A DNA stretch of 56,084 bases from Rhizobacter sp. Root1221 (lineage in GTDB: Bacteria > Pseudomonadota > Gammaproteobacteria > Burkholderiales > Burkholderiaceae_C). Below are positions 15,867-37,107 of this stretch, one piece after another. The notes beneath the pieces are model-generated. The model searched no databases, had not been told where the DNA came from, and saw only the letters and a list, made by a program, of their open reading frames with translations. The DNA lies in the NCBI RefSeq assembly GCF_001425785.1, contig NZ_LMDI01000031.1, positions 846 to 56,929 on the forward strand. Reading direction: 5' to 3'. The position numbers and the translations under genes are program-made. The first letter of the stretch is position 1, and each line of letters opens with the position of its first letter.

Positions 15867-17057
15867 TCAGTTGAGGTCGCCGGGCGGCGGGGCCGCCGGC
15901 GTGCCGTCGTCCACCTGCGGCAACAGGTCGAGCATGGAACCGCCCAGCGGCGCGGCACGGCCACCCAGCAGCCGCGTGGCCAGGCGGCGCAGCGATCGGC
16001 TGTCGGACGCATCGCCGCTCAGCAGCGCCTGCGCGTACCGGGCCGACAGGCTCGTGCCGTCGAGGCGAATCGCGCGGTCGATGGCCTCCTGTGCCGCATC
16101 GTTCGCCTTGCGCATCGCGAGCACCACGGCCAGGCCACCGTGGCTCTCGGCGAAGTTGCGGTCGAGTTCGATCGCCTGTTCAAACGCCCGCAGCGCGGCA
16201 TCCGTGTCGCCTTGCGAGAGGCACGTCCACCCGAGGCCGTGCCAGGTGCCCACGTGTTCCGGCATCGCCTGCAGGGCTTTGGCAAAGCTGGCGCGGGCCG
16301 CGTCGAGTTGCTGCTCCATCAGGTCGGTGAAGGCCAAGGCCGACCAGGTTCGGCCGTCGGTGGGATTCAGCCTCAACGCATGTTGCAGCAGCTGGCGCGA
16401 GAGCGCAGGCGCCTGCTCGGCCAGCGCCACCGACGCGCGTGCGACGAGCGCCTCGACGGGTGCGCCCGGCTCCTTCAACGCATGGTCGGACCACAGCAGG
16501 CTGGCCGTGAAATCAGACTCATCGAGCGCAACGAGGCTGGCCACGCCGGCCGCGGCCGTGGCCAGCTGGCGCACCTGCCAGCGCTCCCGGGCCCATGCCA
16601 TGGCGGCGTCCAGGCGCTGGGCCCGGTGCATCAAGCGCAACCAGAGCACCTGCAGCGCGCCATCAACGGCCTGCGAAGGCGTCACCTCGACCCACGGCGC
16701 GAGCACCGCCAGCCCCGACTCAGGCGCGCCCTCGCGCAACGCGATGTAGGCCAGGTCATGCGCCACCACCGGACGCAGGTCGTCCGGTACATCAGGCGCA
16801 TCCGACAAGACCTGCAACACGGCACGCGCCTCGCCGAACCGGTGCTGGGCCAGCAACCACTGCCCTTCCTTCAGCGTCCAGCCCGGGGCATGGCCGGCCA
16901 ACGCCTGGGCCTTGCGGAGGTGGGTCTCGGCACGGAGCCACGCTCCAGCCTGCAGCGCCGCATCGAACGATTCGCCCACGAGTGCCAGGTTCTCGGGGTC
17001 TTGCTGCAGGTATCCCTCGAGCCGGTCGAGGCGCTGCGTCGCAGTGGGATTCGTCAT
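15867..17057 (-). CDS. TPR-repeat protein at the end of the flagellar-type operon
   Basis: About 396 residues, mostly helical, with tetratricopeptide units clearest at residues about 215-340 (for example GQGDTDAALRAFEQAIELDR-like spacing and LNPTDGRTWSALAF). The ATG at 17057 is chosen because an AAGAGA lies upstream. A GTG at 17093 would add 12 residues and overlap the sigma-factor stop codon by four bases, so either start is possible. There is no signal peptide, so it is probably cytoplasmic. TPR proteins act as scaffolds or chaperones. Here it sits between a sigma factor and a glycosyltransferase, so it may assist secretion or glycosylation. Its exact role cannot be read from sequence. Confidence 0.8.
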   Translation of the reverse strand: MTNPTATQRLDRLEGYLQQDPENLALVGESFDAALQAGAWLRAETHLRKAQALAGHAPGWTLKEGQWLLAQHRFGEARAVLQVLSDAPDVPDDLRPVVAHDLAYIALREGAPESGLAVLAPWVEVTPSQAVDGALQVLWLRLMHRAQRLDAAMAWARERWQVRQLATAAAGVASLVALDESDFTASLLWSDHALKEPGAPVEALVARASVALAEQAPALSRQLLQHALRLNPTDGRTWSALAFTDLMEQQLDAARASFAKALQAMPEHVGTWHGLGWTCLSQGDTDAALRAFEQAIELDRNFAESHGGLAVVLAMRKANDAAQEAIDRAIRLDGTSLSARYAQALLSGDASDSRSLRRLATRLLGGRAAPLGGSMLDLLPQVDDGTPAAPPPGDLN

Positions 17058-17089
17058 CGTGGGTCTCTTGTCGTACGGTAAAGGGTTGC

Positions 17090-17914
17090 TCACCAGGCCA
17101 CGTCCACGCGCTTGCCGGCCTTGAGCCGGCTGCGGAGGGATTGAAGGGCGGTGCGGTGGATCTGTGACACACGGCCCTTCGTCACGCCCATGCGGCTGGC
17201 GATGTCGTCGAAGGCATGCTCGTGGAGGTAGTGTGACGTGATCACGGTCTGCTCCTGAGGCGTCAGGTGGCGGATCACATCACGCAGGCGGGCTTGCAGC
17301 TGCTTGTATTCGAGCCGTTGGTAGTGGCCGTCCGGCTGCTGCCCGGCCGGTTCGTCAGCGGCCACCATGCCGGTGCCGTCCAGCAGGCACCCCAGCGCGA
17401 TGCCGATGCCCACCTCGGCCAGGTAGCGGAACAGTTCGTCGGCCTGGGCCTTCGATCCCTTGCCGAACGGCGCGGCCACCTGCGCCCCGCTCACCCGGGC
17501 TTGCGCCTTGATGGCGTCGAGCCGCTCCTGGCGCAGCCGTTGCCGGACGGCGATCTGCTGCTGCTTTTCGGTGAGGGTTTCGAGGCCATCGAGGATGGCG
17601 CCATGCATCCGGCGCGCGGCGAAGGTCCGGAACTGGGCGCCCTTGTCAGGGTCGTACCGGTCGACGGATTCCACCAGCGCGACGGACGCGAGCTGGTGGT
17701 ATTCGGCGAACTCGATCTCGTTGTGGTTGCGCCGGGCGTAGTAGGTGGCCGCCACCACGCGGGCGTAGTCGAGGTGGTGGGCGATCAGCTGCTGCCGCAG
17801 GGCTTCGTCGCCGGAGGCCCGGAACAACGACCACAACTCGTTCTCGCGCTCGGGCATGGCCGACGCCGCCGCCGAAGCGGCGGCGTGCGAGCCGGGAGCG
17901 CGCGAGGTGGCCAT
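17090..17914 (-). CDS. fliA: FliA-like sigma-28 family RNA polymerase sigma factor
   Basis: The 274-residue protein has a sigma region 2 (residues about 40-110, with ATYYARR, VESVDRYDPDKGAQFRTFA and RMHGAILDGL). Its region 4 (about 215-265) has a helix-turn-helix, FDDIASRMGVTKGRVSQIHR. Region 3 in between is less conserved. These fit the flagellar sigma-28 group, which transcribes late flagellar genes. An Ala-rich tail of about 19 residues precedes MPERENELW, a possible alternative start. The gene begins 8 bases after fliP, so it is made with the export apparatus. No FlgM-like anti-sigma factor gene is seen. No convincing sigma-28 promoter was found in the window by eye, so its targets may lie elsewhere. 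Confidence 0.85.
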   Translation of the reverse strand: MATSRAPGSHAAASAAASAMPERENELWSLFRASGDEALRQQLIAHHLDYARVVAATYYARRNHNEIEFAEYHQLASVALVESVDRYDPDKGAQFRTFAARRMHGAILDGLETLTEKQQQIAVRQRLRQERLDAIKAQARVSGAQVAAPFGKGSKAQADELFRYLAEVGIGIALGCLLDGTGMVAADEPAGQQPDGHYQRLEYKQLQARLRDVIRHLTPQEQTVITSHYLHEHAFDDIASRMGVTKGRVSQIHRTALQSLRSRLKAGKRVDVAW

Positions 17915-17922
17915 GCCTCAAG

Positions 17923-18807
17923 TCAGTGGAACGAGCCCACCAGGGCCTTGAGGATGAGGCTCCAGCCGTCCACCAGGATGAACATCAACACCTTGAGCGG
18001 CAATGCGATGGTGGTGGGCGGCATCATCATCATGCCCAGCGCCATCAGGATGCTCGAGACGATCAGGTCGATCAGCAGGAACGGCAGGAAGATGACGAAT
18101 CCGATCTGGAAGGCCGCACGCAGCTCCGACAGCATGAAGGCCGGCACCAGCTGGATGTTGCCGATGTCGTCCATGCTCTGGGGCGGCTTCGACTTCGACA
18201 GCTCCACCATCAGCGCCAGGTCCTGTTCGCGCGTCTGCCGCACCATGAACTCACGGATCGGCTTGCTGGCCTTGGAAAAGGCCACGTCGTTGCCGAGCGT
18301 GCCCTGCATGTAGGGCTGCAGCGCTTCGTCGTTCACGGTCTGCAGCACCGGCGACATCGTGAACAAGGTCATGAACAACGCCAGCCCGATCAGCACGGTG
18401 TTGGGGGGCGTCTCGGGCATGCCGATCGCATGGCGCAGCATCGACAGCACGATGATGATGCGCAGGAACGCCGTCACGCACACCACCAGGGCTGGCAACA
18501 CCGCCAGCAGCGTGAGGCCCATGACGATGCGCACCGCCAGCGCGGTGTCGGTGCCTTGCGCATTGGCCTGCGGCAGGCGAAGGTCGATGCCCACGCCCTG
18601 CCCGGGCTTGCGGGCCTCGGTGCGTGTGTCCCCCCGTTTTCCGGCCGTGGTGGTCACGGGCGCCGCGGCTTCGGATGCGGCAGGTTCGGCAGCAACCGGC
18701 ACCGACGCGGCCAGTGCAGGCACATCCACCTCGGGCGCCACCTGGGCCCAGCCCGCCCCGCACCACAGCAGGCACACCAGCAACCAGCCCAGGGCGCGCC
18801 GTGTCAT
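17923..18807 (-). CDS. fliP: Flagellar export gate protein FliP
   Basis: FliP forms, with FliQ and FliR, the core of the type III export channel in the MS ring. The 294-residue protein begins with a signal-peptide-like segment (MTRRALGWLLVCLLW). An Ala/Pro-rich spacer of about 60 residues then makes it longer than the usual 245. The conserved core follows: hydrophobic helices, the family segment VLSMLRHAIGMPETPPNTVL, FMTLFTMSPV, and the C-terminal GMMMMPPTTIALPLKVLMFI. The ATG overlaps the stop of fliO by four bases. The spacer after the leader is unusual and could be checked against other FliP proteins. Assignment of the core is secure. Confidence 0.95.
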   Translation of the reverse strand: MTRRALGWLLVCLLWCGAGWAQVAPEVDVPALAASVPVAAEPAASEAAAPVTTTAGKRGDTRTEARKPGQGVGIDLRLPQANAQGTDTALAVRIVMGLTLLAVLPALVVCVTAFLRIIIVLSMLRHAIGMPETPPNTVLIGLALFMTLFTMSPVLQTVNDEALQPYMQGTLGNDVAFSKASKPIREFMVRQTREQDLALMVELSKSKPPQSMDDIGNIQLVPAFMLSELRAAFQIGFVIFLPFLLIDLIVSSILMALGMMMMPPTTIALPLKVLMFILVDGWSLILKALVGSFH

Positions 18808-19235
18808 GTCGTGGGCTCCACCGGCGCAGCAGGCGCGTCGTCGCGGTCGAGCACGACGGGCGCCCCCGCCCCCTGCACAGCCACCAGCAATTGCCGGCGC
18901 TTCCACTCGACGACGTGCAGCCGCGTGTTGACGTCGAGCCGCACGCTCGAGACCACCCGCACTTCCGCCGGCGCGGGTGTCACCAGCCGCTGGAGCCACG
19001 GGCCGCTGCGCCGATGCCGGAACCACCACGCCCCCGCAGCGACCGCCACGAGCACGAGCAGCAACACCGCCCCCGCCACCGGAAAGCCCGGATCGGTGGC
19101 CTCGGTGCGGAACGGCAGCGGGGATGACGCCTGCGGCACCACCGGCACCACGCCCTCCGCGGCACCGGCCAGCGCGGGCGCCAGCACCCAGCCCCCGCGC
19201 AACACGGCGCGGCAGCAAGAACGCAGGCCGCTCAT
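18804..19235 (-). CDS. fliO: FliO-like export assembly protein
   Basis: The 143-residue protein has one strong transmembrane segment near residues 50-72 (VAGAVLLLVLVAVAAGAWWF). A small cytoplasmic domain follows, containing VVSSVRLDVNTRLHVVEW and LLVAVQGAG, the pattern of FliO (SSxRLxxxxxLxVVxV). FliO helps assemble the FliP ring. The position directly between fliN and fliP, with four-base overlaps at both ends, is the usual place for fliO. FliO is poorly conserved, so the call rests on topology, this motif and gene order. Confidence 0.75.
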   Translation of the reverse strand: MSGLRSCCRAVLRGGWVLAPALAGAAEGVVPVVPQASSPLPFRTEATDPGFPVAGAVLLLVLVAVAAGAWWFRHRRSGPWLQRLVTPAPAEVRVVSSVRLDVNTRLHVVEWKRRQLLVAVQGAGAPVVLDRDDAPAAPVEPTT

Positions 19236-19591
19236 GCTTTCAGCGGCACGGGGATGTCGGTGATGCGCACGGCGAACTGGTCGTCCACCGCGACCAGCTG
19301 GCCACGGGCCACCACCTTGCCCTCGAGCAGCACGTCCACCGGCTGGTCCACCAGGCGGTCGAGCACGAACACCTGGTGTTCCTTCGCGGACATCAGCTCT
19401 CCCACCGTGACCTCCACCTGGCCCACGCACACCTGCAGGCGGGTCTTGATGTGGTGCAGCGGGTTGACCGGGTCGCCGATCACGGGGCGTGCGCTGTCGG
19501 GGCCGTCGTGCAGTTCCGTCAAGGCGATGACGTGTGCGGTGCGGCCGCTGTCGGCCGCCGGTGCGTTGGCGGGGTATTTCGAATCACTCAT
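19232..19591 (-). CDS. fliN: Flagellar C-ring protein FliN
   Basis: The 119-residue protein has a C-terminal SpoA (surface presentation of antigens) domain: LQVCVGQVEVTVGELMSAKE, then VLDRLVDQPVDVLLEGKVVA and GQLVAVDDQFAVRITDI. These are the hallmark FliN strands. FliN forms the bottom of the C-ring and docks the FliH-FliI ATPase complex. The N-terminal 45 residues are variable, as usual. The stop overlaps the fliO start by four bases. Because FliN also serves export, its conservation does not by itself show that a rotary switch is present. Confidence 0.92.
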   Translation of the reverse strand: MSDSKYPANAPAADSGRTAHVIALTELHDGPDSARPVIGDPVNPLHHIKTRLQVCVGQVEVTVGELMSAKEHQVFVLDRLVDQPVDVLLEGKVVARGQLVAVDDQFAVRITDIPVPLKA

Positions 19592-19622: not shown

Positions 19623-20429
19623 TCAGTTGCCGTGCGACCGCACGACTTCGATGGCGCGCCGGCCGTTGCGGGCGCCGAGGTGACCGGCGCACGCCACGGG
19701 CGCCTGCGCGTCGGCAGGCCGCAGCGTCAACGGTGCATCCAGCCGGTGCGACAAGGTCAGCACGTCACCGACCCGCAGCGACTGCAGCGTGCCGAGGTCG
19801 AGCTCGGTGGTACCGAGTTCGACGCGCAGGGTGACGGGCTGGTGCGCCATGGCGCCCAGCACCGACGCGGTGATGGGCGCCATCTGACCCTGCCACGGCC
19901 GCCGTGAGTCGCGCAGCATCGGGGCCACGCTGTCGGCCGTGAGGTGCAGCCACAGGCTCGGTGCCTCGCCGCGCCCCCAGGCAAGCCGCACCCGCACACT
20001 GCCCGACCAGGCGGCCGAACGCGGCCGCCCGAACGACGGCAATTCAGCCGATGGCGCACGGCCCAGCAGGCTCGCCAGCTCGTCCGAGAACTCGCGCCAG
20101 GCGCGGCCAGCCACCTCGGTGCCGACGGGGCCGGCATTGCCGTGCGCGAACATCAAGCCCGCGATCACGCCCGCGGGCGTGTCCTGGGCGGCGGCCACCC
20201 AGGCCCATGGCGTGGCGGCACAGGCGTCGGCCTGCCACGGCTGCCACTCGGCGGACGCGTTGGCGGGCGCTTCGTGCGCGTTGAAACTTTCCACCGGTTC
20301 GGCCGGCAGGTCCCAGCGCGCCGCCCAGGCCCGCCACACGGGTTCGATGCGGCGCGACAGGGTGTCGAGTGCCGGCGCAGACCACCACCGGAGCGGTGTG
20401 TGCTGCTCAGGGAGCGGGATGTCGTTCAT
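19623..20429 (-). CDS. fliM: Short, divergent FliM-like C-ring protein
   Basis: The gene lies between flgE and fliN, the FliM position, and encodes 268 residues against about 334 in standard FliM. The C-terminal 75 residues form a SpoA domain (VTLRVELGTTELDLGTLQ, LRVGDVLTLSH, CAGHLGARNGRRAIEVV). The middle could be the FliM CheC-like domain but is strongly diverged. The N-terminus (MNDIPLPEQHTPLRWW) lacks the conserved IDALL-type motif that binds phosphorylated CheY in chemotactic flagella. The ATG overlaps the flgE stop by four bases. It could equally be called a SctQ/YscQ-like SpoA protein by sequence, but the flagellar neighbours favour FliM. Confidence 0.75.
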   Translation of the reverse strand: MNDIPLPEQHTPLRWWSAPALDTLSRRIEPVWRAWAARWDLPAEPVESFNAHEAPANASAEWQPWQADACAATPWAWVAAAQDTPAGVIAGLMFAHGNAGPVGTEVAGRAWREFSDELASLLGRAPSAELPSFGRPRSAAWSGSVRVRLAWGRGEAPSLWLHLTADSVAPMLRDSRRPWQGQMAPITASVLGAMAHQPVTLRVELGTTELDLGTLQSLRVGDVLTLSHRLDAPLTLRPADAQAPVACAGHLGARNGRRAIEVVRSHGN

Positions 20430-21604
20430 TTGCTTTTCATCGAGAACAGTTCCTGCAGCATCTCGTTCGCGGTGGAAACGATCTGCGAGGACGCCTGGTA
20501 GCCGCGCTGCATGATGACCAGGTCGCTGAACTGCTGGGACAAGTCCACGTTCGACAACTCGATCACGCCGGAGCTGATGGTGCCGAAGGCCAGGCCGTCG
20601 GCCACGCCGGTGTGCCACGCGGTTTCGTCGGTCGACTTGAACTGGTTGTCGCCCACGGCCTCCACCGCATCGGGCGTGTCGAACCGCGCCAGGGCGATGC
20701 GCTGGCCCTTGACGGACTGCTGGTTCGTGTACGCGAGCACCAGCGTGCCGGTGCTGTCGAAGGTGGCGCTGCTCAACGCGCCGAGCTTGTAGCCGTCCTG
20801 GCGGGTCACCGCGAGCGTGGAGATGTCACCCGACGCAAACGAACGCACCTCGCCGCTGAAGTCGAATTCGAGGGGCATGGCAGCCTGCCCGGCCGGCTTG
20901 TACTCGATCTTCAGCTTTGAGGTGGCAGCGGTCGGTTTTCCGTCGGCGAACTCCAACGTGCCGGAGCCCACCGTCGTGGTGCCATCGAGCACCTTCACGG
21001 CCCATTTCTGGTCGGTGCGGGTCAACGACAGGCTCAGCGTGTGCTCGCCGCCGAGCGCATCGATCGCCACGATGTTGCTGACCGTCTGGGCATTCGCGGT
21101 GGTGCTGGGCAGGTTGCCCTGGAAGGCGATCGACGTGGTCGCCTTCGCGGCGTTGATGCGCTGCGTGTTCAGGTCGATCCGGGTGAAGTTGCCGGTGCCG
21201 TCGGCCGACATCACTTCGCTGTTGTCCGCGCGGTTCACGAGCACCCCGTCGCCGTTGAACTCGAACTGCCCGGCGCGCGTGTAGTGCAGTTCACCTTCGG
21301 CGTTGCGCAGCACGAAGAGTCCCTGGCCGTCGACGGCCAGGTCCAGGTCGTTGCCGGTCTGGCGCAGTTCACCTTGCTTGAAGTTCAGCGAGGTCGAGTA
21401 GGTGGTGAGCCCGTAGCCCAGCTGGTCGCGCCCGAACGCCTCGCTGCCGGACCCATCGCTGTTCGCGTAGAACATGTCGGCAAACTGCAGCGACGCCCCC
21501 TTGAACCCCGGGGTGTTGAGGTTGGCGGTGTTGTTCGCGATGACACGCAGGCCGTGGGAGTAGCCCATCAGGCCGCTCATTCCAACGTAGATCGACTCGA
21601 GCAT
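20426..21604 (-). CDS. flgE: Flagellar hook protein FlgE
   Basis: FlgE polymerises outside the cell into the hook. The 392-residue length is typical. The N-terminal rod-family signature is clear (GLRVIANNTANLNTPGFKGA), as is the FlgE/F/G motif LDLAVDGQGLFVLRN. The C-terminal helix (LSQQFSDLVIMQRGYQASSQ, then EMLQELFSM) is typical as well. The middle carries the surface domains. A strong Shine-Dalgarno (CCAGGAGAA) precedes the ATG. Presence of a normal hook protein means the structure extends beyond the outer membrane, although no hook-filament junction or flagellin gene follows. Confidence 0.95.
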   Translation of the reverse strand: MLESIYVGMSGLMGYSHGLRVIANNTANLNTPGFKGASLQFADMFYANSDGSGSEAFGRDQLGYGLTTYSTSLNFKQGELRQTGNDLDLAVDGQGLFVLRNAEGELHYTRAGQFEFNGDGVLVNRADNSEVMSADGTGNFTRIDLNTQRINAAKATTSIAFQGNLPSTTANAQTVSNIVAIDALGGEHTLSLSLTRTDQKWAVKVLDGTTTVGSGTLEFADGKPTAATSKLKIEYKPAGQAAMPLEFDFSGEVRSFASGDISTLAVTRQDGYKLGALSSATFDSTGTLVLAYTNQQSVKGQRIALARFDTPDAVEAVGDNQFKSTDETAWHTGVADGLAFGTISSGVIELSNVDLSQQFSDLVIMQRGYQASSQIVSTANEMLQELFSMKSK

Positions 21605-21632: not shown

Positions 21633-22037
21633 TCAGCGCACCGCGGTGACTTGGCTGAGCCCGATGTTGCTCAACGTGGCCCCTGCGGTGGTGCGCACCG
21701 ACAGCGATGGCGAGCTGCCTGCGAGCGACAGGGTGGCGACCGTGCCGGTGACGTTGCCGCTTTCGGTGGTGATGTCGACCGTGCGGCCGATGAGCCCCAC
21801 CGACTGCAGCGCCGCCTGAGTCGACAGCAACGCGTCGAGCTTGCCATTGAGCTGCTGCGTCTGCTCGAGCGATGTGAACTGCGCCATCTGTGCCATGAAC
21901 TCCTGGTTGTCCATGGGCTTCAGGGGATCCTGGAAGGTCAGCTGCGTGAGCAGGATCTTCAGGAAGTCCTCCATGCCGAGGCCGTTGGCCTGGAGGTTCG
22001 CGCCCGTGGTGCCGCCGACGGCGCCGATGCTGTCCAT
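21633..22037 (-). CDS. flgD: Minimal hook-capping protein FlgD
   Basis: FlgD caps the growing hook. This version has 134 residues, well below the usual 220 or so. The conserved N-terminal segment is intact: MEDFLKILLTQLTFQDPLKP followed by DNQEFMAQMAQFTSLEQTQQ. Only a short stretch like the start of the C-terminal beta domain remains (VGLIGRTVDI). The start MDSIGAVGG is chosen because AAGGGA stands just upstream and the codon directly follows the fliK-like stop. Minimal FlgD proteins exist, so the shortening alone is not proof of decay. Confidence 0.9.
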   Translation of the reverse strand: MDSIGAVGGTTGANLQANGLGMEDFLKILLTQLTFQDPLKPMDNQEFMAQMAQFTSLEQTQQLNGKLDALLSTQAALQSVGLIGRTVDITTESGNVTGTVATLSLAGSSPSLSVRTTAGATLSNIGLSQVTAVR

Positions 22038-22038: not shown

Positions 22039-22788
22039 TCAGAACTCCCTTGTGGTTTCAGTGATGTGAATGACGGCGTCCGCATCGGGACGCCTCGAAT
22101 CGAAGAATGCGGTGTCCGTGGGCCACGGTTCACCGTTGCAGGTGAGGCTCGCCACCCGGATCCCCTGCCCGGCCAGCCAGCGGGTCACCATCCCGGCCAC
22201 ACGAGGCAGGTGGTCGGCATGGGCCGCGTCGACGCCCACCCAGACCCGGGCGACACCGTCGTCCCATTGCACATGCACCCGCACCGGTTCGGCGACGTCG
22301 GCGAGCTGCAGCAGTACGGCGGGCGCCTCGGTGGGCGCCGGGCCGGTGATCAGGTTGGGTGCCGAGGGACGAACATTCAATGGCGCAGGCACGGGTGCGG
22401 CGGCGGGCCCGCCGATCGCGAACGGGCGGGATGCCGTCGCGGCAGCGAATTCCGCAGTACCCGCCAGCGCGCGTCCCTGATGCCCGGCACTGTCGACGGC
22501 GACCTGCCCGGCCTCTTGCGCCGGCGCCCACGTGAACACCGGGTGAGGTGGTGCCACGGTGCGTGCGATGGAGGGGTTCGCTGGCGCCTGCGCCGGACGG
22601 CCGTCACCACGCGCCCGGGCGTCCGGGCCGGGAGGGGGCGCCGTTTGCTTCTTGAACCACGTCTCGGTCTGCGCCCGCTCCATCTCGCGCTGCCATGCCA
22701 GGCGTGCCGGATCGGCCGGGGCGCGAGCGGTGGTGGGCGAACGGGCCGGATCGGCCTGGCCTGCCTGCGCAGCGGGATCAATGCTCAT
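22039..22788 (-). CDS. fliK: FliK-like hook-length control protein (tentative)
   Basis: The 249-residue product is Ala/Pro-rich and low in complexity over residues 1-150. A more structured C-terminal part has V-x-W-D-D-G-V-A-R-V-W-V and a final region of strands and helices. FliK proteins have a disordered N-terminal ruler and a globular C-terminal domain that switches substrate specificity, and fliK commonly lies between fliJ and flgD. The start MSIDPAAQ is chosen because GGAGGAAG sits just upstream and the ATG overlaps the fliJ stop by four bases. I do not see the full FliK C-terminal signature, so the call depends mainly on position and composition. Confidence 0.5.
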   Translation of the reverse strand: MSIDPAAQAGQADPARSPTTARAPADPARLAWQREMERAQTETWFKKQTAPPPGPDARARGDGRPAQAPANPSIARTVAPPHPVFTWAPAQEAGQVAVDSAGHQGRALAGTAEFAAATASRPFAIGGPAAAPVPAPLNVRPSAPNLITGPAPTEAPAVLLQLADVAEPVRVHVQWDDGVARVWVGVDAAHADHLPRVAGMVTRWLAGQGIRVASLTCNGEPWPTDTAFFDSRRPDADAVIHITETTREF

Positions 22789-28215: not shown

Positions 28216-28590
28216 TCAGCGTTTGCCTTCAGTGACGGCACTGGCAAGAATGCCGAGATGGCGGCTCAATCCGCGCACCAGGGCCTGGTAGTGCAGGCTG
28301 TTCTCGGCCATGGCGGCCACTTCCGTATCGACGTGGACGTCGCGCGGCTGGCCAGCGGGGTTCAGGTCGGGTTCGATGCGCACCTGCAGTTCGGGTGCGA
28401 GGGCGCGCGCCGCACCCTGCGCCGCACGCAGGTTGTCGGCCAGGTGCGCCTCGAAGCTGGCCCGCCGGGGCACGAAGCCCACCGTGCCTGCGTTGGCGAT
28501 GTTCGTGGCGATGACCTGCTGGCGCACCGTCGCCGCATCGAGTGCGAGCGACAGCGAGGCGGTCGTGATGGCTTCCACGCCTGGGTTCAT
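28216..28590 (-). CDS. flgB: Flagellar proximal rod protein FlgB
   Basis: The 124-residue protein carries the rod signature VRQQVIATNIANAGTVGFVP, in which the usual NxANxxTPG pattern reads NIANAGTVG. It ends with VDTEVAAMAENSLHYQALVR, the FlgB C-terminal helix. AGAGGAA precedes the ATG. It is somewhat shorter than the typical 130-138 residues. FlgB joins FliE and FlgC at the base of the rod. Confidence 0.93.
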   Translation of the reverse strand: MNPGVEAITTASLSLALDAATVRQQVIATNIANAGTVGFVPRRASFEAHLADNLRAAQGAARALAPELQVRIEPDLNPAGQPRDVHVDTEVAAMAENSLHYQALVRGLSRHLGILASAVTEGKR

Positions 28591-29767: not shown

Positions 29768-30342
29768 CACAGCCCCACGAAATCCAGCGCCTTGCGCCAC
29801 CAGGCAGGCTTCTGCCGTTCGGCAAGCTCACCTTCACCAACGTAGGTGATCTTCGCGTCGGCCAGCCGGGACGAGACCACGACGTTGTTCTCGGCGATGT
29901 CCTGCGGCCGCACACGCCCCTCGACATTGATGCGTTGCTGCTCGTCGTTGATGAGCAGCAACTGCTCGCCGGCCACCTGGAGGTCGCCGTTGGGCAGCAC
30001 TTCCTTGACCGTCACGGTGAGCTGGGCGAGCAGCTTGCCGGAACGCGTGGTGCGCCCCCCGCCGTCGAACTCACCACCGGCCCCGATCCCCACGGACACC
30101 GTGGGTACGTGCGCCCGGGTCAGATCCGCACTCAGCTCGTTCTTTCGCCGCGTGCCGGTGTCCGCGTTCGCCGTGGCAGCGGAGTTCTCGAGGACCTGCA
30201 CGGTCAGCGCATCACCGACGCGGTAGGCGCGTGTGTCGCTGGCCAACGCGCGGTAGGACTTCTCGTCATACAGGCTCTGAGACACCGCCGATGCAGCGAA
30301 ACCCGCCAACAGCAAGGCGGCAAGGATCCGTCGATTCTTCAT
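29767..30342 (-). CDS. flgH: Flagellar L-ring protein FlgH lacking a lipobox
   Basis: FlgH builds the outer-membrane L ring and is normally a lipoprotein. The 191-residue product keeps the FlgH core (AYRVGDALTVQVLENSAATA, LTVTVKEVLPNGDLQVAGEQ, INVEGRVRPQDIAENNVVVS, ADAKITYVGEGEL). Its signal peptide is MKNRRILAALLLAGFAASAV-SQS. The protein contains no cysteine at all, so there is no lipobox and it cannot be lipidated. It would be cut by signal peptidase I instead. The start is supported by a TGGAGT upstream and overlap with flgA. How the ring is held in the outer membrane without lipid is an open question. Confidence 0.93.
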   Translation of the reverse strand: MKNRRILAALLLAGFAASAVSQSLYDEKSYRALASDTRAYRVGDALTVQVLENSAATANADTGTRRKNELSADLTRAHVPTVSVGIGAGGEFDGGGRTTRSGKLLAQLTVTVKEVLPNGDLQVAGEQLLLINDEQQRINVEGRVRPQDIAENNVVVSSRLADAKITYVGEGELAERQKPAWWRKALDFVGL

Positions 30343-31313
30343 GGTTTCAACTCCACTTGGTTCAGTCCGATCACCCACGCCGACACGGGCGCAGACGCGG
30401 ATGGCACACGCACCAGCACCTGCTGGCCGGGTTGACCGTCCTGCAAGGCTTCGGCCGTTGTTTCGAGCGTGATCGCACCGGAGCGGCTGAGCAGGCGCAC
30501 CCGCTGGCCCCGGCTCACCCGCGGCTCTGGTTCGACGTGCGCCGAGGTCAGCACCTGGCCCGCCAGCAATGGCCGGCGAAGGCGCAGCCCGGACGTGGAC
30601 TGGTCGGCCGCCAGCGGCGCCGAGGACAGGCCGGCCAGCTCGGTCTCCTGCAGCACCAGGGCATCGCCGTCGATGCGTTGCTGGGCGCGAACGTCGCGCC
30701 GGGCCACCCAGGCCGGGCCGATCCACCGGACCCGCAGGGTGACCGGAACCGATCGGGCAAAAACACCGTCGGCCCAGATGTCCACCGGCAACTGCATGCG
30801 GCGCTCCACCGGCTGGCCTTCGGCCATGGCGTGAGCTTTGAGTTCAATGCGGCCCGGGGGCACCGCCCACGCCGCGGTGCCGCACACTGGCGAGACCTGG
30901 GCCGTGCCCCTCGACGTGCCCAGCCAGTCGGTCAACGCCGATTGCGCGGCACGGCACACTTCGTCTGCCGGCACCCACTGGCTTGCGCGTTCCACGCGCA
31001 CGGCCGCGGCCCCGGTCCACTCGTACACACCCGTCCGTCCATCCGCCCGCTGCAGCCACCGCTCGATCTGGGCCCGCTCGAGCCGGAGCACCTCCCCGAC
31101 GCGGGGCCCGCTGCCGAGGTTCAGTGCCGCCGCGGCCTGCACCTGCTCGCGGTCGTCGCCAACCACCCGCGCCACGTCGCCCAGGCGCACGTGCGTGGCG
31201 TTCACAGCCACCTGCGGCAAAAGTTCAAGGCGCACCGGCGCCGCCCACGCGAGCGCGGGCAGCGCCAGCCAGGCCAGCGCTGCTGCCAGCCGCGAAACCG
31301 GGGAGGCTGTCAT
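30339..31313 (-). CDS. flgA: P-ring assembly chaperone FlgA
   Basis: The 324-residue periplasmic protein has a signal peptide (MTASPVSRLAAALAWLALPA-LAWA). It has an N-terminal domain including VRLGDVARVVGD. The C-terminal SAF-type domain carries WVARRDVRAQQRIDGDALVL, LRRPLLAGQVLTSAHVEPEP, GQRVRLLSRSGAITLETTAEA and GQQVLVRVPSA, typical FlgA features. It is longer than E. coli FlgA (219) but similar to other betaproteobacterial forms. Its ATG shares a base with the flgG stop, and its end overlaps flgH by four bases, placing the ring proteins and their chaperone together. Confidence 0.92.
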   Translation of the reverse strand: MTASPVSRLAAALAWLALPALAWAAPVRLELLPQVAVNATHVRLGDVARVVGDDREQVQAAAALNLGSGPRVGEVLRLERAQIERWLQRADGRTGVYEWTGAAAVRVERASQWVPADEVCRAAQSALTDWLGTSRGTAQVSPVCGTAAWAVPPGRIELKAHAMAEGQPVERRMQLPVDIWADGVFARSVPVTLRVRWIGPAWVARRDVRAQQRIDGDALVLQETELAGLSSAPLAADQSTSGLRLRRPLLAGQVLTSAHVEPEPRVSRGQRVRLLSRSGAITLETTAEALQDGQPGQQVLVRVPSASAPVSAWVIGLNQVELKP

Positions 31314-32104
31314 CAGCGCCTGAGGCTGTTGACCATGCCCAGCATCTCGTCCGATGCCTGCACGACCTTCACGCTCGCCTCGTACGCCCGCTGGGCCACC
31401 ATCAGGTTGACCATCTCGTCGACCAGCTTGACGTTCGAGCCTTCGAGGTACCCCTGCCGCACCGTGCCCATGGCGTCCTCGCCCGCCCGGCCGGCGATGG
31501 GGTCGCCCGAGATGGCGGTGGGCCGGTATTCGTTGTCGCCCCGCGACTGCAGGCCTGCGGTGTTCGTGAACCGCACCAGGTCGAGTTGGCCCAGTTCGAC
31601 GGCTGTGGTCTGGTCGGGCATGCGCACCAGCACCTTGCCGTCCTGGCTCACGGTCAGAGACTGTGCCGTCTCGGGAATGGCGATGGCCGGCTTCAACGGG
31701 TGCCCGGCCTGCGTGGAGAGGAGGCCGTCCGGGCCCACCTTGAACGACCCGCCACGCGTGAAGGCCGACGTCCCGTCCGGCAACGTGACCTCGAAGAAGC
31801 CCTCCCCCGAAATGGCGAGGTCGTAGGCTGAATCGGTCTTCTTGATGTCACCCGTCTCGAACACCTTGGTGATGCCCACGACGCCAACACCCACCCCGGC
31901 ACGCGACACGTCGTCCGCGCCGGCCAGCGAAGGCACGTCACCCGACGACACACGGCTGGCCTCGCGCGCGATCAGGTCGACGAAGCTGACCCGTGCGCGC
32001 TTGTAGCCCACGGTGTTCACGTTGGCCAGGTTGTTGGCGACGGCGTCGACGTTCATCTGCTGGGCGTGCATGCCCGTGGCACCGATGTAGAGGGAATCGA
32101 ACAT
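31313..32104 (-). CDS. flgG: Flagellar distal rod protein FlgG
   Basis: The 263-residue length is standard. It begins MFDSLYIGATGMHAQQMNVD with VANNLANVNTVGYK, the rod/hook family signature. It continues with YDLAISGEGFFEVTLPDG and ends with LEGSNVKLVDEMVNLMVAQR and AYEASVKVVQASDEMLG, the FlgG C-terminal helix. FlgG forms the long drive-shaft section that passes through the P and L rings, so the encoded structure spans the whole envelope. Confidence 0.96.
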   Translation of the reverse strand: MFDSLYIGATGMHAQQMNVDAVANNLANVNTVGYKRARVSFVDLIAREASRVSSGDVPSLAGADDVSRAGVGVGVVGITKVFETGDIKKTDSAYDLAISGEGFFEVTLPDGTSAFTRGGSFKVGPDGLLSTQAGHPLKPAIAIPETAQSLTVSQDGKVLVRMPDQTTAVELGQLDLVRFTNTAGLQSRGDNEYRPTAISGDPIAGRAGEDAMGTVRQGYLEGSNVKLVDEMVNLMVAQRAYEASVKVVQASDEMLGMVNSLRR

Positions 32105-32139: not shown

Positions 32140-32895
32140 TCAGGCGTCGCCGAGCTTGCGGATGGCCGAGCCCACGAGGTCGTCGTAGCCCTGCACGATG
32201 CGTTGCATGGATTCGAAACGCCGCATGGTCTGCATCAGCTCGACCATCTCCCGCGCCTGCTGGACGTTCGAGTTCTCGAGGAAGCCCTGGCGAACGTCGA
32301 TGTCGGCTTCAGACACCAGTGACGGACTCCTGCCCTCGGCGAACAAGCCGCCATCGAGAGGTGTGAGCGCCTGGCCGGGCTCGAAGGCCACGACCTTCAG
32401 GCGGTCGACCACCCGGCCGTTGTCGGTGACATTGCCTTTCGCGTCGATGGTGACACCACTGCCACTCACGACGATGTCGCCGGCCTGGCCTTGCACCGGC
32501 AGGCCCTGCATGGTGACGAGCCGCCCGCGGGCGTCCAGCTGGAATTCACCCTGGCGGGTGTAGGCAAGGCCCTCCGGCATCTGCACTTCGAGGTAACCGT
32601 CGCCAGCGAGCGCCACATCGAGGCTGCGGCCCGTGGCCCGCAGGGTGCCCGAGCGCATGTCGCGCACCAGTTCGAAGGGCTGCGCGGTTTGTGCGGTGGC
32701 GCCACCTTCCGGCGACGCGGCCACGCCCATCATCGCCTGCGCGAACGACGGCACGATGGCGTGTTCGGCGCGGCTGACCAGCAGTTGCCGCTTGTAGCCG
32801 GGGGTGGTGACGTTGGCCAGGTTCGTGCCCACCTGTTCGAGGCGGGCCACGTCCTGCTGCATCGACCGCAGCGCAATGGCGAGTACTTCTTGCAT
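32140..32895 (-). CDS. flgF: Flagellar proximal rod protein FlgF
   Basis: The 251-residue protein has a rod signature at its N-terminus (RLEQVGTNLANVTTPGYKRQ). It has the FlgF/G segment LDVALAGDGYLEVQMPEGLA and YTRQGEFQLDARGRLVTMQG. It ends in a helix with LENSNVQQAREMVELMQTMR. The start MQEVLAIALRSMQQDVARLE fits the family; an upstream in-frame ATG would add a non-homologous segment reaching into the flhA end. Spacing from flhA is 25 bases. Confidence 0.93.
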   Translation of the reverse strand: MQEVLAIALRSMQQDVARLEQVGTNLANVTTPGYKRQLLVSRAEHAIVPSFAQAMMGVAASPEGGATAQTAQPFELVRDMRSGTLRATGRSLDVALAGDGYLEVQMPEGLAYTRQGEFQLDARGRLVTMQGLPVQGQAGDIVVSGSGVTIDAKGNVTDNGRVVDRLKVVAFEPGQALTPLDGGLFAEGRSPSLVSEADIDVRQGFLENSNVQQAREMVELMQTMRRFESMQRIVQGYDDLVGSAIRKLGDA

Positions 32896-32920
32896 CTTGG
32901 TTCCTGGATGAAGGCCGCGG

Positions 32921-34969
32921 TCAGGCACCGACCACGGCATAGGATTTCAGTTCGATCGTCTGCGGCACCTCGGTCATCGACAGGATGCGCAGGTGCGGCA
33001 GCACCCGTTCCGAGAGCGCGCGCAGGTGGCGGCGCAGGTCCGGCGAACACAGCAGCACGGGCAGGAGGTTGTGTTTCATCATGCGTTCGGCGTTCGACAC
33101 GAGGCGGCCCATGAACTGCTCGGCCAGCCTGGGGTCGATCACGAGGGGCTGTCCGGCGTCGGCCTGCCGGAGCGTGTGCATGAACTGGCTCTCCATGGCC
33201 GGGTCGAGTGTCATCACCTGCAGCGCCGTGGCGTCGCCCAGCAACCCCTGGCAGATGGCGTGTCCGAGGCGATGCCGCACGCGCTCCGTCAGGTAGCCGA
33301 TGTCCTTGCTCGCCCGCCCTGCGTCGGCCAGTGTTTCCAGGATGGCCTCGATGTGGCGGATGCTCACCTTCTCCCGCAACAGGTTCTGCAGGACCCGCTG
33401 CACGTCCGTCACGGACAACACGGTGGGGATGAGCTCTTCCACCAGGCTCGGCTGGGATTGCCGCACCCGCGCCAGCAGGCGTTCCACCTCGGAGCGCGTG
33501 AGCAATGTCGCCGACTCGCGGCGAAGCACTTCCGTCAGGTGGGTCATCAGCACCGTCTGGGCGTCGACGAGCGTGTACCGGGCCGCCACGGCCTCCTCGC
33601 GGCGGGTAGCGTCGATCCACAGCGCGGGAAGGCCGTAGGTCGGGTCCCGGGTGACTTCACCCTGCACGGCGGTCACGTCGCCGGTGGGGTGGATGGCCAG
33701 CAACCGGTCGGCACGGGCTTCGCCGCGGCCGGCGATGACCCCGTCGATGTGGATCTCGTACCGCTCGGCGCCCAGGCGCGCCAGGTCCTTGAAGCGCACC
33801 CGAGGCAACACGAGGCCGAACTCCTGGGCATGCTGCTTGCGGAACGCCGCGATGCGCTCCATGAAGAGCCCGTCGGCCTGCGTGACCAGCGCGCTCCACT
33901 TGGCGCCCACCTGCACCTCGATCGGTTCGACCGGCAAGGCCGCATACGGATCGTCCCCCACCTTCTCGGCAGCCCCTTCGGCGTCAGCTTGCGGCTCGGC
34001 AGCGGCCTTGTTCGCCGCGATGCGCCGGACAAACCACCACACCCCCAGCACCACGACCAACAAGGTCAGCGTGGGCAAAGCAGGAATGCCCGGCAGCAGC
34101 AGGAGCCCGCCCAGCGCCGCTGCAACGAGGAGCAGCGTCTTCGGAAACGAGGTGATCTGGCGCAGCACCTCCTGGCTGAGGTTGCCGTCCGACGCGGAGC
34201 GGGTCACGATGATGCCGGTGCCAACCGCGATGACCAGGGCCGGCACCTGCGTCACGATGCCGTCGCCGATGGTCAGCAGCGTGTAGGTCTGCAGGGCCTG
34301 GCCCCACGGCAAGCCCAACTGCATCACCCCGATCACGATGCCGCCGATGATGTTGATCAGCATGATGATGATGCCGGCGATCGCATCACCCTTCACGAAC
34401 TTGCTGGCACCGTCCATGGCGCCGTAGAAGCCCGCTTCCTTCTCCAGGTTCTTGCGGCGACGCTGGGCCTCCACCTGGTCGATGAACCCCATGTTGAGGT
34501 CGGCATCGATGCTCATCTGCTGGCCCGGCATGCTGTCCAGCGTGAACCGGGCAGCGACTTCGGACACCCGCTGGGCCCCGCTCGTCACCACGACGTACTG
34601 CACGACGATCAGGATCAGGAAGACGATCAGCCCGATCACGTAGTTGCCGCCCACCACGTAGGACCCGATGGCCCCGATCACCTTGCCGGCGCTGGCCTCG
34701 GACAGGATCAGGCGGGTGGCCGCGACGTTCAGGGACAACCGGAACAGCGTTGCGATCAGCAGCAGTGAAGGAAAGGTGGAGAACTCGACCGGCCGCGCCA
34801 TGTAGAACGTCAGCAGCAGGATCAGGAAGGCGAAGCTGAAGTTCGCGAGCAGCAGGAAATCGAGCACACCCGCCGGAATGGGGGCGAACAGGATCACCAG
34901 GATGCCCAGCACCATCGCCACCATGGCGATGTCGCTGTGTTTGCCGACGATGCGTTGCAACGCGTTCAT
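32921..34969 (-). CDS. flhA: Flagellar export gate protein FlhA
   Basis: The 682-residue protein has eight predicted membrane helices in residues about 15-310. The FHIPEP signature lies between them (LDSMPGQQMSIDADLNMGFI-DQ). A large cytoplasmic domain forms the nonameric docking ring for chaperone-substrate complexes (for example YGLPALWIDATRREEAVAAR and the final PQTIELKSYAVVGA). FlhA couples proton motive force to export. Length and motifs are normal. Its stop is 25 bases before flgF, and its ATG overlaps the flhB stop by four bases. Confidence 0.96.
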   Translation of the reverse strand: MNALQRIVGKHSDIAMVAMVLGILVILFAPIPAGVLDFLLLANFSFAFLILLLTFYMARPVEFSTFPSLLLIATLFRLSLNVAATRLILSEASAGKVIGAIGSYVVGGNYVIGLIVFLILIVVQYVVVTSGAQRVSEVAARFTLDSMPGQQMSIDADLNMGFIDQVEAQRRRKNLEKEAGFYGAMDGASKFVKGDAIAGIIIMLINIIGGIVIGVMQLGLPWGQALQTYTLLTIGDGIVTQVPALVIAVGTGIIVTRSASDGNLSQEVLRQITSFPKTLLLVAAALGGLLLLPGIPALPTLTLLVVVLGVWWFVRRIAANKAAAEPQADAEGAAEKVGDDPYAALPVEPIEVQVGAKWSALVTQADGLFMERIAAFRKQHAQEFGLVLPRVRFKDLARLGAERYEIHIDGVIAGRGEARADRLLAIHPTGDVTAVQGEVTRDPTYGLPALWIDATRREEAVAARYTLVDAQTVLMTHLTEVLRRESATLLTRSEVERLLARVRQSQPSLVEELIPTVLSVTDVQRVLQNLLREKVSIRHIEAILETLADAGRASKDIGYLTERVRHRLGHAICQGLLGDATALQVMTLDPAMESQFMHTLRQADAGQPLVIDPRLAEQFMGRLVSNAERMMKHNLLPVLLCSPDLRRHLRALSERVLPHLRILSMTEVPQTIELKSYAVVGA

Positions 34970-36045
34970 GCGCGCGCCCCCGCTGCACGCTTCTCGCGCA
35001 TGGCAAGGATCCAGACCATCAAGCGGGCCAGGTCGGCATAGAGGTGGTGGGGCACTTGCTGGTCGATCTCCATCCCGTGGTAAATGGCACGCGCAATCGT
35101 TCGGTTCTGGACCACGGGAATCTGCTTTCTGGCGGCAATCTGCCGCATGGCGGCGGCCATGCCGCCCGCACCCTTGGCCAACAGCAAGGGGGCTTCCATC
35201 TCACCGTGGCGGTAGCGAAGGGCCACGGCCAGGTGCGTCGGGTTCGTGATCAGCACGTCGGCAGAGCCGGTCTTGCGCAACGCCAGGCTGCGCTTGAGCA
35301 TCTCCCGGCGCAGGCTGCGAAGGCGGGCACGAATGCGGGGATCCCCCTCGCGATGCTTCACCTCGTCCTTGAGCTCCCGCTTGCTCATGCGCATCTTCTT
35401 CGCGAACTCGCGGCGGCTGAACGCAAAATCCAGTGCGGCGATCACGCCCAGCGCCAGCGCCAGCTTCAGGCAGAGCGACGCCACATCGTCGACCAGCAAC
35501 CGCGTGTACGCGAGCGGCGGCCGTCCCGCCAGCTGGTGGAACTGCGGCAGCAGCGACTTCAGCGCGGCGTACACCACCAGCGACAACACCACCAGCTTCA
35601 CGCAGGCGCGGAATGCGTCGAACAGCGTTCGCATGGACATGACCCGCTTGAACCCCGCCGCCGGATTGATGCGCTGCCAGTCGGGGATCAGCGGGTGGCC
35701 CGTGAACACGGCGCCCGTCTGCAACACGTTGCCGAGCACCGCAGCCAGCATGATGGTTGCCAGCACGGGCACGAGCAGCATGAACGTGGCGCGCACCCCA
35801 TGCTCGACCAGCTGCCAGAGGATCTCGGGCTGCGCGCCGGCCCGGGCCAACTGGCGGAACAGCGTGCCGTCGAAGCGGAACTGCTCGCTGATGACGTCCC
35901 AGCCGCGGGCATAGAAATAGACGACGGCCGCGGCGAACACCAGCGCCGAGACGACGTCGGCGCTCTTGGAGACCTGGCCCTTCTTGCGCGCTTGCTCGAG
36001 CTTGTACGGTGTGGCCGCATCGTTGCGGTCGAGATCCTGTTCCAT
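34966..36045 (-). CDS. flhB: Flagellar export switch protein FlhB
   Basis: The 359-residue protein has four membrane helices and a cytoplasmic domain with the autocleavage motif N268-P-T-H271 (ITNPTHLAVALRY). Cleavage between N and P changes export specificity from rod/hook to later substrates. The N-terminus, ATPYKLEQARKKGQVSKSAD, is typical. An intact NPTH suggests the specificity switch still operates, implying that there are later substrates although none is encoded here. The ATG shares a base with the TAA of fliR. Confidence 0.96.
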   Translation of the reverse strand: MEQDLDRNDAATPYKLEQARKKGQVSKSADVVSALVFAAAVVYFYARGWDVISEQFRFDGTLFRQLARAGAQPEILWQLVEHGVRATFMLLVPVLATIMLAAVLGNVLQTGAVFTGHPLIPDWQRINPAAGFKRVMSMRTLFDAFRACVKLVVLSLVVYAALKSLLPQFHQLAGRPPLAYTRLLVDDVASLCLKLALALGVIAALDFAFSRREFAKKMRMSKRELKDEVKHREGDPRIRARLRSLRREMLKRSLALRKTGSADVLITNPTHLAVALRYRHGEMEAPLLLAKGAGGMAAAMRQIAARKQIPVVQNRTIARAIYHGMEIDQQVPHHLYADLARLMVWILAMREKRAAGARA

Positions 36046-36827
36046 TACCGAAACACCGCCTCCCAGGTCTTGAAGATCGACCCGTTGACCCGCTCGACAA
36101 CACCCGTCAGCGCCATGAACGAGACCGACAGCGCGGCCACACCCACGACCACCTTCACGGGAATGGCCAGGATGAAGGTGTTCATCTGCGGCAGGTTGCG
36201 CGCGAGCACGCCGAGCCCGACCTCGACCAGGAACAGGCAGAACACCACCGGAGCGACCATCGCGAAGCCGAGCGAAAACATCGAGGAGGCTTGATGCATC
36301 AGCGGCAAGGCCGCCTGCTGCAGCAGCCACGGCGACCCTGGCGGGATGGCTTCCACGCTGAGGGCCAGCCCGCGCAACACGTTGTGGTGCGCGTCGGTCA
36401 CGAAAAACAAGACCATGGCCAGTTGGTTGAAGGCGCTGGTGATCACCGGCACTTGTTGCCGGGACACGGGATCGAACACCTGGCCAATGCCGAAACCCGT
36501 CTGCACATCGAGCAGACGGCCGCCGATCGAAAACGCCGCGAAGGCCAGGTTCACCCCGAGGGCCAGCGTGGCACCCAAGGCCACCTCGCAGAGGCCGGCA
36601 AACAGCAGCTTCCCCAGGGATCCCTCAAAGGGCAGCGACGGAACCCCGGGCAGCGCCGATGCCAACACCACGGCGAACGCGATGCCAAACAACAGACGGA
36701 CGGTCGGAGGCACCGCCACCGACGACAGCGGTGCAGCGGCAAGCAACAAGCCTGCAACACGGAGACTCAGCAGGCACGTGCTTGCCAACCAGCCCTGCAG
36801 GGCTGGGTACAACTCGGGGGGAGCCAT
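36045..36827 (-). CDS. fliR: Flagellar export gate protein FliR
   Basis: The 260-residue, very hydrophobic protein has six membrane segments and conserved FliR stretches: LLRVAG-type start, FSIGGRLLDVQTGFGIGQVF, DP, HHNVLRGLALS, FAMVAPVVFCLFLVEVGLGV, and LARNLPQMNTFILAIPVKVV. FliR completes the FliP5-FliQ4-FliR1 channel. It lies 7 bases from fliQ. Length is standard for the family. Confidence 0.95.
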   Translation of the reverse strand: MAPPELYPALQGWLASTCLLSLRVAGLLLAAAPLSSVAVPPTVRLLFGIAFAVVLASALPGVPSLPFEGSLGKLLFAGLCEVALGATLALGVNLAFAAFSIGGRLLDVQTGFGIGQVFDPVSRQQVPVITSAFNQLAMVLFFVTDAHHNVLRGLALSVEAIPPGSPWLLQQAALPLMHQASSMFSLGFAMVAPVVFCLFLVEVGLGVLARNLPQMNTFILAIPVKVVVGVAALSVSFMALTGVVERVNGSIFKTWEAVFR

Positions 36828-36834
36828 GCTGCAC

Positions 36835-37107
36835 TCAGAACATGGCCGGAATGCCGGACCAGAGTCGCGTGGAGAAGGCGGCGAGTGTGCGGAGGATCCA
36901 GGGGCCGAAGACGATCAAACTGATGGCAGCGGTCACGAGCTTCGGCACGAACGTCAATGACATTTCCTGCACTTGCGTGACAACCTGCAGCACGCTGATC
37001 AGCACTCCCACCAGCATGGTCAGTCCCAGCACCGGGAGGCACACGATGAGCCCGGTCCAGAACAATTCCGCAAGCATTCGCAACGCAAGATCTGCGTGCA
37101 TCGACAT
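36835..37107 (-). CDS. fliQ: Flagellar export gate protein FliQ
   Basis: The 90-residue protein has two membrane helices and the family segment LVGVLISVLQVVTQVQEMSL followed by TFVPKLVTA. FliQ is about 89 residues throughout the family. The start MSMHADLALR is preceded by GAGGGGGGA. It is the first gene of the minus-strand array: everything to 15867, and perhaps to 14609, is on the same strand with little or no spacing, so fliQ probably opens one long operon. Confidence 0.95.
   Translation of the reverse strand: MSMHADLALRMLAELFWTGLIVCLPVLGLTMLVGVLISVLQVVTQVQEMSLTFVPKLVTAAISLIVFGPWILRTLAAFSTRLWSGIPAMF

Follow-up and report, generated by a model that had tools for sequence, protein, structure and literature searches.

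A propeller-less flagellar base that may serve as a secretion machine for giant Rhs proteins

What could a flagellar hook and basal body be for when no filament, stator or chemotaxis gene accompanies them? The question is raised by a stretch of 56,084 nucleotides from Rhizobacter sp. Root1221 (hereafter the window), part of contig C31 (NZ_LMDI01000031.1) in an assembly of 6.87 Mb, where a minus-strand array at positions 15867-37077 encodes a full hook-basal body and export gate, as read from Pfam matches on the called genes. On the plus strand of the same window, beyond a transposase, lies the 3' part of a giant Rhs gene (1-12513). We propose, with a probability of roughly three in four (0.76), that the array encodes a non-rotating, flagellum-derived type III secretion machine, for which giant Rhs proteins would be the late substrate instead of flagellin.

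Gene content and the reduced switch

Read from 37077 down to 15867, the array opens with the export-gate genes fliQ (36835-37077), fliR (36045-36827), flhB (34966-36045, with the NPTH autocleavage motif) and flhA (32921-34969), the last being the marker by which we follow the lineage through its profile and tree. It continues with flgF for the rod (32140-32895), flgG for the distal rod (31313-32104), the P-ring chaperone gene flgA (30339-31313), flgH for the L ring (29767-30342), flgI for the P ring (28619-29767), and two further rod genes, flgB (28216-28590) and flgC (27752-28195), assigned by gene order together with a rod-domain match at E 1.8e-4 in the former and a C-terminal rod domain in the latter. 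Then come fliE (27438-27755), fliF for the MS ring (25940-27382), a FliG-like gene of 201 codons (25338-25943), fliH (24580-25227) and the ATPase gene fliI with its P-loop AGSGVGKS (23264-24574). The genes in the FliJ position (22785-23267) and the FliK position (22039-22824) match no family in the window and are assigned by position, the former also having profile matches in eight loci of the lineage. They are followed by flgD, matched over the N-terminal domain of the hook cap (21633-22037), flgE for the hook (20426-21604), a FliM-like gene (19623-20429), the ring-protein gene fliN (19232-19591, by Pfam and NCBIfam), fliO (18804-19205; PF04347, E 2e-5) and the export-gate gene fliP (17923-18807). 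The array ends with a FliA/WhiG-like sigma factor of the system (17090-17857; TIGR02479 at E 5e-26, below the curated cut-off) and a large TPR protein (15867-17057, by Pfam and NCBIfam), for which we propose a role as substrate chaperone or adaptor. Export gate, MS ring, rod, P and L rings and hook are all encoded, and the core flagellar reading frames are open. A sequence-only reading had already described a complete minus-strand operon of this kind; it is borne out as to the hook-basal body, the export gate and, by Pfam, FliH and FliI, while its FliJ is a matter of position and its inventory lacked fliO, the sigma factor and the TPR protein.

That reading had also listed parts which it could not find, and for the following families the list stands. 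Pfam searches found no match to the flagellin, FlgK/L, FliD, FliS, MotA/B, FliL or che families among the window genes scanned, a set that left out a few open reading frames of 55-82 aa at 39.9 kb and 45.2-48.8 kb, outside the array. For the stator proteins MotA and MotB this negative holds for the window's scanned genes, the remaining genome and the relatives not having been searched for them. Secretin and needle families were likewise without a match among the scanned genes. We also used proteins of the other flagellum in this genome as queries against 29 loci of the same lineage: its flagellin and FlgL gave zero matches at E 0.01, its FlgK gave only weak matches in six loci, nearly all of them in the FlgF/FlgG rod-gene region, and its FliM, FliG, putative FliL and putative FlgJ matched nothing at E 1e-4.

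The switch is reduced as well, as the earlier reading had held. The FliG-like gene sits between fliF and fliH and has a sub-threshold MgtE_N match in Pfam. A profile of 19 copies, 151-236 aa long, was compared by hhalign with canonical FliG (331 aa) and matches its residues 5-179 with an E value of 5.5e-4, at a probability of only 30%, and in a profile search of the PDB six of the eight matches at E<=5 are FliG, the best being 3hjl (residues 61-184, E 0.0077). FliG was recognised in 21 of the 29 loci, in 19 of them above 80 bits. By these profile comparisons, FliG retains its N-terminal and middle part only, and the C-terminal torque domain is gone. The C-terminal domain of FliG is the part that contacts the stator; since this domain is missing and no stator genes accompany the cluster, the base would be non-rotating. 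The FliM-like protein, in which Pfam matched only the C-terminal FliMN_C domain and for which the best NCBIfam model is SctQ, below cut-off, is by the same kind of evidence reduced to an SctQ-like form that keeps the C-terminal ring domain alone. In FlgH, the lipobox cysteine that L-ring lipoproteins normally have is apparently absent from the mature start in the lineage copies read (26 stretches, the window copy lacking it too), a loose cysteine pattern in five of these 26 being judged distant from that start.

A distinct lineage of flagellar bases

Of the checks that the sequence-only reading had named for its proposal, we made a genome-wide search for a second flagellar set and flagellin, a comparison of FlhA with those of flagella and injectisomes, and a search for the same reduced cluster in related genomes. 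The genome holds four FlhA-family genes: the window copy, one in a flagellar set on contig C56, and two in injectisome-like type III sets on C14 (~137-139 kb) and C2 (~53-55 kb), these two additional sets bringing the FlhA/SctV genes to four. Contig C49 carries three flagellin genes, and C4 carries one FlgL-like gene beside a FlgK-like frame; taken with the separate C56 set, they indicate a second flagellar set that has flagellins of its own. A Flagellin_N search of the genome returned no extra flagellin or FlgL that could be assigned to the window cluster, and the FliG_C domain was found once genome-wide, in the C56 set.

When 60 relatives were compared, three genomes (G001, G056 and G010) proved to have an FlhA with 61-82% identity to the window copy, whose full-length identity to the other FlhA proteins of these relatives does not exceed 44%, apart from one partial match at 52%. 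Scanning named genomes with an FlhA signature, and taking the best 80 matches rather than a census, we found carriers in Variovorax, Roseateles, Ralstonia, Pseudomethylobacillus, Andreprevotia, Janthinobacterium, Noviherbaspirillum, Ramlibacter, Sphingomonas, Grimontia, Dyella, Rheinheimera and Legionella and in metagenome-assembled genomes (MAGs), the closest among the matches listed being Roseateles sp. YR242. An FlhA profile scores 33 distinct lineage genes at 974 bits or above and that of one MAG (L154) at 912, compared with 829 at most for all other FlhA proteins compared. A tree of 76 rows, built by a quick method and rooted at the midpoint, places 34 of 34 lineage rows in a single group with a Shimodaira-Hasegawa-like approximate likelihood ratio (SH-aLRT) of 100; the group stands apart from betaproteobacterial flagella and from two injectisome rows (L003 and L004), and it branches inside flagella. 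On this phylogenetic evidence the cluster is a distinct lineage that spans Beta-, Gamma- and Alphaproteobacteria. From the FlhA tree we reject the possibility that the flagellum of the host itself was copied and then reduced.

Given the complete hook and rod of the cluster, and a separate set in the same genome that offers three flagellins, FlgK and FlgL, it can be asked if this is simply a second flagellum that still turns, borrowing its flagellin, hook-associated proteins and stators from the primary one. We regard this as very unlikely. A turning base is hard to reconcile with 19 FliG copies that hold the N-terminal and middle part only, or with a genome whose sole FliG_C belongs to the other set; moreover, the cluster FlhA is distant from those of the native flagella, and neither flagellin nor FlgL was found in the 29 loci.

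The reduced gene set recurs, with its order largely kept as far as the stretches reach, in these 29 loci, which come from 29 genomes and three proteobacterial classes; blocks are permuted in G091, L115, L117, L119 and L120. The profile searches of the clusters chose wrong frames for some FliM, FliO, FliJ and FliI genes, which were excluded from the counts. The FliI motif is kept in 15 of 17 copies and the NPTH-type motif of FlhB is present in 24 of the 29 loci, where the two FliI without a P-loop and some of the five FlhB without the motif may themselves be wrong-frame cases. The ratio of nonsynonymous to synonymous substitution rates (dN/dS) lies at 0.09-0.35 across 19 usable genes in comparison with G001, and at 0.10-0.36 in 13 of 14 usable genes in comparison with L111, the remaining gene, fliH, reaching 0.56; the figures are rough because synonymous sites are near saturation (0.43-0.72). 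Rows dropped were, against G001, FliI (34 codons, 0.14) and FliP (45 codons, 0.84) and, against L111, FlgE (0.88), which had been mispaired with a rod gene. As judged from these ratios, the cluster is under purifying selection. One might otherwise suppose that a decaying flagellar remnant had been retained by chance, the late genes being missing and an IS200-like insertion adjoining the array. We give almost no credence to this view, considering the open core frames, the gene order largely kept across 29 genomes of three classes, the low dN/dS and the motifs kept in FliI and FlhB.

Giant Rhs genes and their association with the cluster

The giant gene of the window, which we propose as the exported substrate, has the YD/RHS repeat core by which Rhs proteins are recognised: Pfam finds 18 RHS repeat stretches in it, along with RTX and HCBP repeats and LysM, and the C-terminal tip is without a family match. 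A check of the open reading frame against the contig end shows that the contig begins in a scrambled repeat, in which the 5' end of the gene is lost, and that the frame opens just upstream of the window. There, at C31:1-845 (L005), RTX repeats and ambiguous bases are seen, and the assembly breaks within the giant gene. The conserved N-terminus is read from kin of the giant, the window copy being cut by the contig start. Leader-bearing giant ends are present in this genome on contigs C7 and C32, and the N-terminus of the window giant is probably the one at the C7 contig end, the two contigs being unjoined. The other end belongs to a second giant Rhs gene (G000, C32:6662-24175), an open frame of 5838 aa with the identical leader type, distant from the cluster. 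Open frames of the giants run mostly to ~3400-7700 aa, with a maximum of 7719 aa.

The giants and the cluster occur together far more often than expected. Among the 60 relatives, the lineage FlhA (E <1e-190) and the giant N-terminus (E <1e-12) are found in the same four genomes and neither is found in the other 56. The clusters of G001 and G010 likewise have a giant Rhs gene as neighbour, in differing orientations and with other flanks that do not match those of the window. In 399 genomes of the order, with the best 7 and 2 candidates per genome scored, FlhA was found in 15, the leader in 14 and both in 12 against 0.5 expected, across nine families (Fisher p 1.4e-18, a value that ignores kinship). 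Named genomes picked by FlhA alone carry the leader in 16 of 17 cases, at E 2.7e-33 or better. Among 398 genomes drawn from across the phylum, four had the FlhA and three of those the leader, with one weak generic Rhs match elsewhere and no new carriers. All sets combined, the leader is present in 30 of the 34 genomes that carry the lineage FlhA, and in 14 of these 30 the two lie on one contig, at most ~42 kb apart. One further genome, G332, has the leader, and the lineage FlhA was not found in it. Its leader frame stops after 401 aa (G332:C1:4063628), which, taken with the FlhA not found there, gives it the look of a relic.

The leader itself has the consensus MVAIVxGNGLGL, in which the M and G7 are invariant in 20 rows. 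Only 2 of 43 leaders have a lysine or arginine among residues 1-12, and this near absence indicates that the leader is not Sec-like. Residues 1-96 matched no solved structure, all 14 PDB matches beginning at profile position 97 or later. Upstream of the giants we found a FliA-like motif, cTAAAC-N15-CYGGATR. Its strict form is present ahead of 15 of 43 giants, compared with 0.07 expected from shuffles, and a matrix with kin left out places 22 of the 43 upstream regions above a 1% threshold. Of the three native flagellin genes, one has a different FliA-type site, TCAAG-N15-CCGATAA, and none has the giant type. Thirteen giant sites served to train the promoter matrix; when 1.0 Mb of loci was scanned, six of the best 14 sites fell at giant starts, a number that is partly circular because some of those giants trained the matrix, and one fell 0.7 kb ahead of a TPR gene. 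Genes for TPR proteins recur in these surroundings. A TPR gene is present in 20 of the 29 loci, and in 18 of them its distance from fliQ or from the sigma gene is ~2.5 kb at most, G112 and L119 being the exceptions; the match in G421 is of a small TPR type. By our count, members of this small family (~180-270 aa) are neighbours of a giant, of the large TPR gene or of the sigma gene in 20 genomes, one such case being the giant N-terminus on C7 of the Rhizobacter genome.

Several observations weigh against the interpretation of these giants as cargo of a non-rotating base. The cluster occurs without a full leader match in G060, G371 and the L154 MAG, and in G109, where a contig end cuts the leader. 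G283, assembled in one contig and 100% complete, has giants and no lineage FlhA; no cluster was found in the stretches examined around two of its giants, and within the searches made it is a true exception. In 16 of the 30 genomes with both, many of them draft assemblies, the two are not shown on one contig, and in the Rhizobacter genome the link of the window giant to the leader is indirect, the leader ends being on C7 and C32. The promoter motif falls below threshold ahead of 21 of the 43 giants, appears in its strict form on 3 of 43 reverse-strand controls, and accounts for seven of the best 14 sites in 1.0 Mb at places other than a giant or TPR gene. It was not found ahead of the operons, for which reason we assign the sigma factor to it by analogy. 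For the base itself, the low hhalign probability of the FliG match counts against us, as does the failure to recognise FliG in G211, L119, L121 and L124, where the stretch spans its place. Finally, we know of no precedent for a protein of ~5000 aa passing a flagellar gate.

Some of these observations would fit a base that is real and non-rotating, with which the giants travel while leaving the cell by another route such as a type VI (T6SS) or type I (T1SS) secretion system. The incomplete linkage and the giants of G283 could be so explained, RTX repeats are reminiscent of T1SS substrates, and Rhs proteins are classic T6SS cargo, as exemplified in the accessible text of PMC6993521. We consider this quite unlikely, given that co-occurrence holds even where linkage is not seen, that Pfam finds no PAAR or other T6SS N-terminus of the VgrG type on the window part of the giant, that the RTX region is internal within the giant, and that a FliA-like promoter precedes 22 of the 43. 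Export of the giant by Sec or a T1SS was considered in its own right and appears unlikely from the leader type and the internal RTX region.

As to what the giants would do once outside, a pair of them from G091 shows 53-79% identity per block of 250 columns over more than 4000 columns and then drops to 24% and 21% in the final two blocks. Of eight tips searched, one, also from G091, is a C-terminal muramidase (PF11860, E 9.6e-63; L190:11917-13416), which indicates a bacterial target. The other seven, that of the window included, match no Pfam family, a further point against the role in toxin delivery that we favour. With their LysM and RTX domains, their very large size and these unmatched tips, the giants could instead be a structural or adhesive fibre, forming a surface organelle at the hook tip. 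This is in our estimation rather unlikely, since the one variable-tip pair and the one muramidase tip fit a polymorphic toxin.

Around these two main elements, the window holds genes whose relation to them is less direct. The giant is followed on the plus strand by a 278-aa protein (12525-13361) with a sub-threshold TPR match and a weak match to the small TPR family (E 5e-4), and by an IS200-like Y1 transposase (13456-14532, by Pfam), which separates the giant from the operon. Between transposase and array, on the minus strand, lies a GT4 glycosyltransferase (14609-15838, by Pfam and NCBIfam) that is a candidate member of the system. On the other side, 37221-41931 carries a large catalase (37221-39890), a hemerythrin-domain protein and a zinc metallopeptidase, which have no counterparts flanking the cluster in G001 or G010. 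Farther on, at 48902-55982, a nonribosomal peptide synthetase (condensation, adenylation, carrier and thioesterase domains), a major facilitator superfamily transporter and an acyl-CoA dehydrogenase make up a small peptide-type biosynthetic cluster. Searches with PADLOC and PHROGs returned nothing useful. Catalase and transposase are the two borders that the sequence-only reading had given; it had overlooked the glycosyltransferase and, past the transposase, the giant Rhs gene. Its suggestion of a non-rotating secretion device derived from a flagellum is still the best fit by sequence, with two changes: the device belongs to a separate lineage instead of being a reduced host flagellum, and it is not cargo-less, in that it co-occurs with, and often lies near, giant Rhs proteins that share a leader.

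A possible order of events and the relation to known systems

If the array is a secretion machine for the giants, it can be hypothesized that the order of events copies that of a flagellum. The base and hook would be assembled first, after which the FlhB switch, with its NPTH-type motif, would let late substrates in. The FliA-like sigma factor of the system would read the cTAAAC-N15-CYGGATR promoters ahead of the giants, and a TPR protein may hold the giant before export. The giant would then be threaded out unfolded and, once outside or at the tip of the hook, would fold up as an Rhs shell, bringing its tip domain to other cells; export through the cluster and entry of the tip into other cells are steps that we infer. 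Placing the giant as the late gene in flagellin's position would account for the loss of the filament, the hook junction, the stator and the torque domain, and also for the leader, the promoter and the co-occurrence.

In its export gate, ATPase, MS ring, rod, P and L rings, hook and FliA-type sigma factor, the cluster resembles bacterial flagella, whether primary, flag-2 or flag-3. It differs from them in that the scanned genes include none for a filament, hook junction, stator or chemotaxis, in that its FliG has lost the C-terminal domain, and in its recurrent association with Rhs proteins that have a leader in common. Its proposed likeness to the system of Lysobacter enzymogenes lies in a flagellar export apparatus used for secretion. 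That system is reportedly a native set that has lost its flagellin. The flagellar type III secretion system (T3SS) of non-flagellated L. enzymogenes is reported to secrete antimicrobial toxins (Fulano et al. 2020, as cited in PMC13288982). The flag-2 paper describes one Rhs plus VgrG cargo in an E. fergusonii locus and suggests a secretion role (PMC6993521). We examined flag-3 of Enterobacterales as an identity for the cluster and rejected it, since flag-3, according to the section of its description that bears on this, holds 46 of 47 flagellar proteins (PMC7526173).

With the injectisome, or non-flagellar T3SS, the cluster shares the independent use of flagellar parts for export, the loss of motility parts and an SctQ-like ring protein, as far as the accessible parts of two papers describe them (PMC3459982, PMC10433427). 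Unlike the injectisome, the cluster has an FlhA that branches inside flagella, retains P and L rings, rod and hook, and shows no secretin or needle among the genes scanned. The Myxococcales form of T3SS also lacks secretin and needle, by the same partial sources (PMC3459982, PMC10433427), and the present cluster differs from it in retaining the flagellar outer rings and hook. Judged by its sequences, the cluster is neither an injectisome, by phylogeny or parts, nor, by parts, a motility flagellum. The giants resemble Rhs polymorphic toxins, T6SS-linked and others, in their YD-repeat core and, in the G091 pair, in a variable C-terminal tip; for such toxins the accessible text of PMC3482391 gives this core, a variable tip and an N-terminal region of their own. 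The giants differ from the known Rhs toxins covered there in a pre-repeat leader without a structure match, in an unmatched PAAR and in frames of up to 7719 aa. We recognised no description of the present system in the open-access full-text literature, subscription papers being mostly outside that search.

Considering these comparisons, we would put forward, tentatively and at slightly short of even odds, a wider interpretation: that the cluster represents a separate, old flagellar exaptation that owes nothing to the injectisome. It would be a non-rotating machine ending in a hook, with a late sigma factor of its own, that takes giant Rhs polymorphic toxins in place of flagellin and delivers their tips into neighbouring cells, and it would form a distinct secretion class, transferred laterally as one block among Beta-, Gamma- and Alphaproteobacteria. 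The standard example of a flagellum that became a weapon is the injectisome. If our reading is true, a second and separate case would separate the export parts of the flagellum from its torque parts, having retained the hook and outer rings while the rotor and the cargo were altered. It would also provide an export route for a family of giant Rhs proteins that lack Sec and T6SS features, and would let one ask of a natural system what protein size a flagellar gate can pass at most. The locus would then stand for a use of the flagellum that has gone unrecognised.

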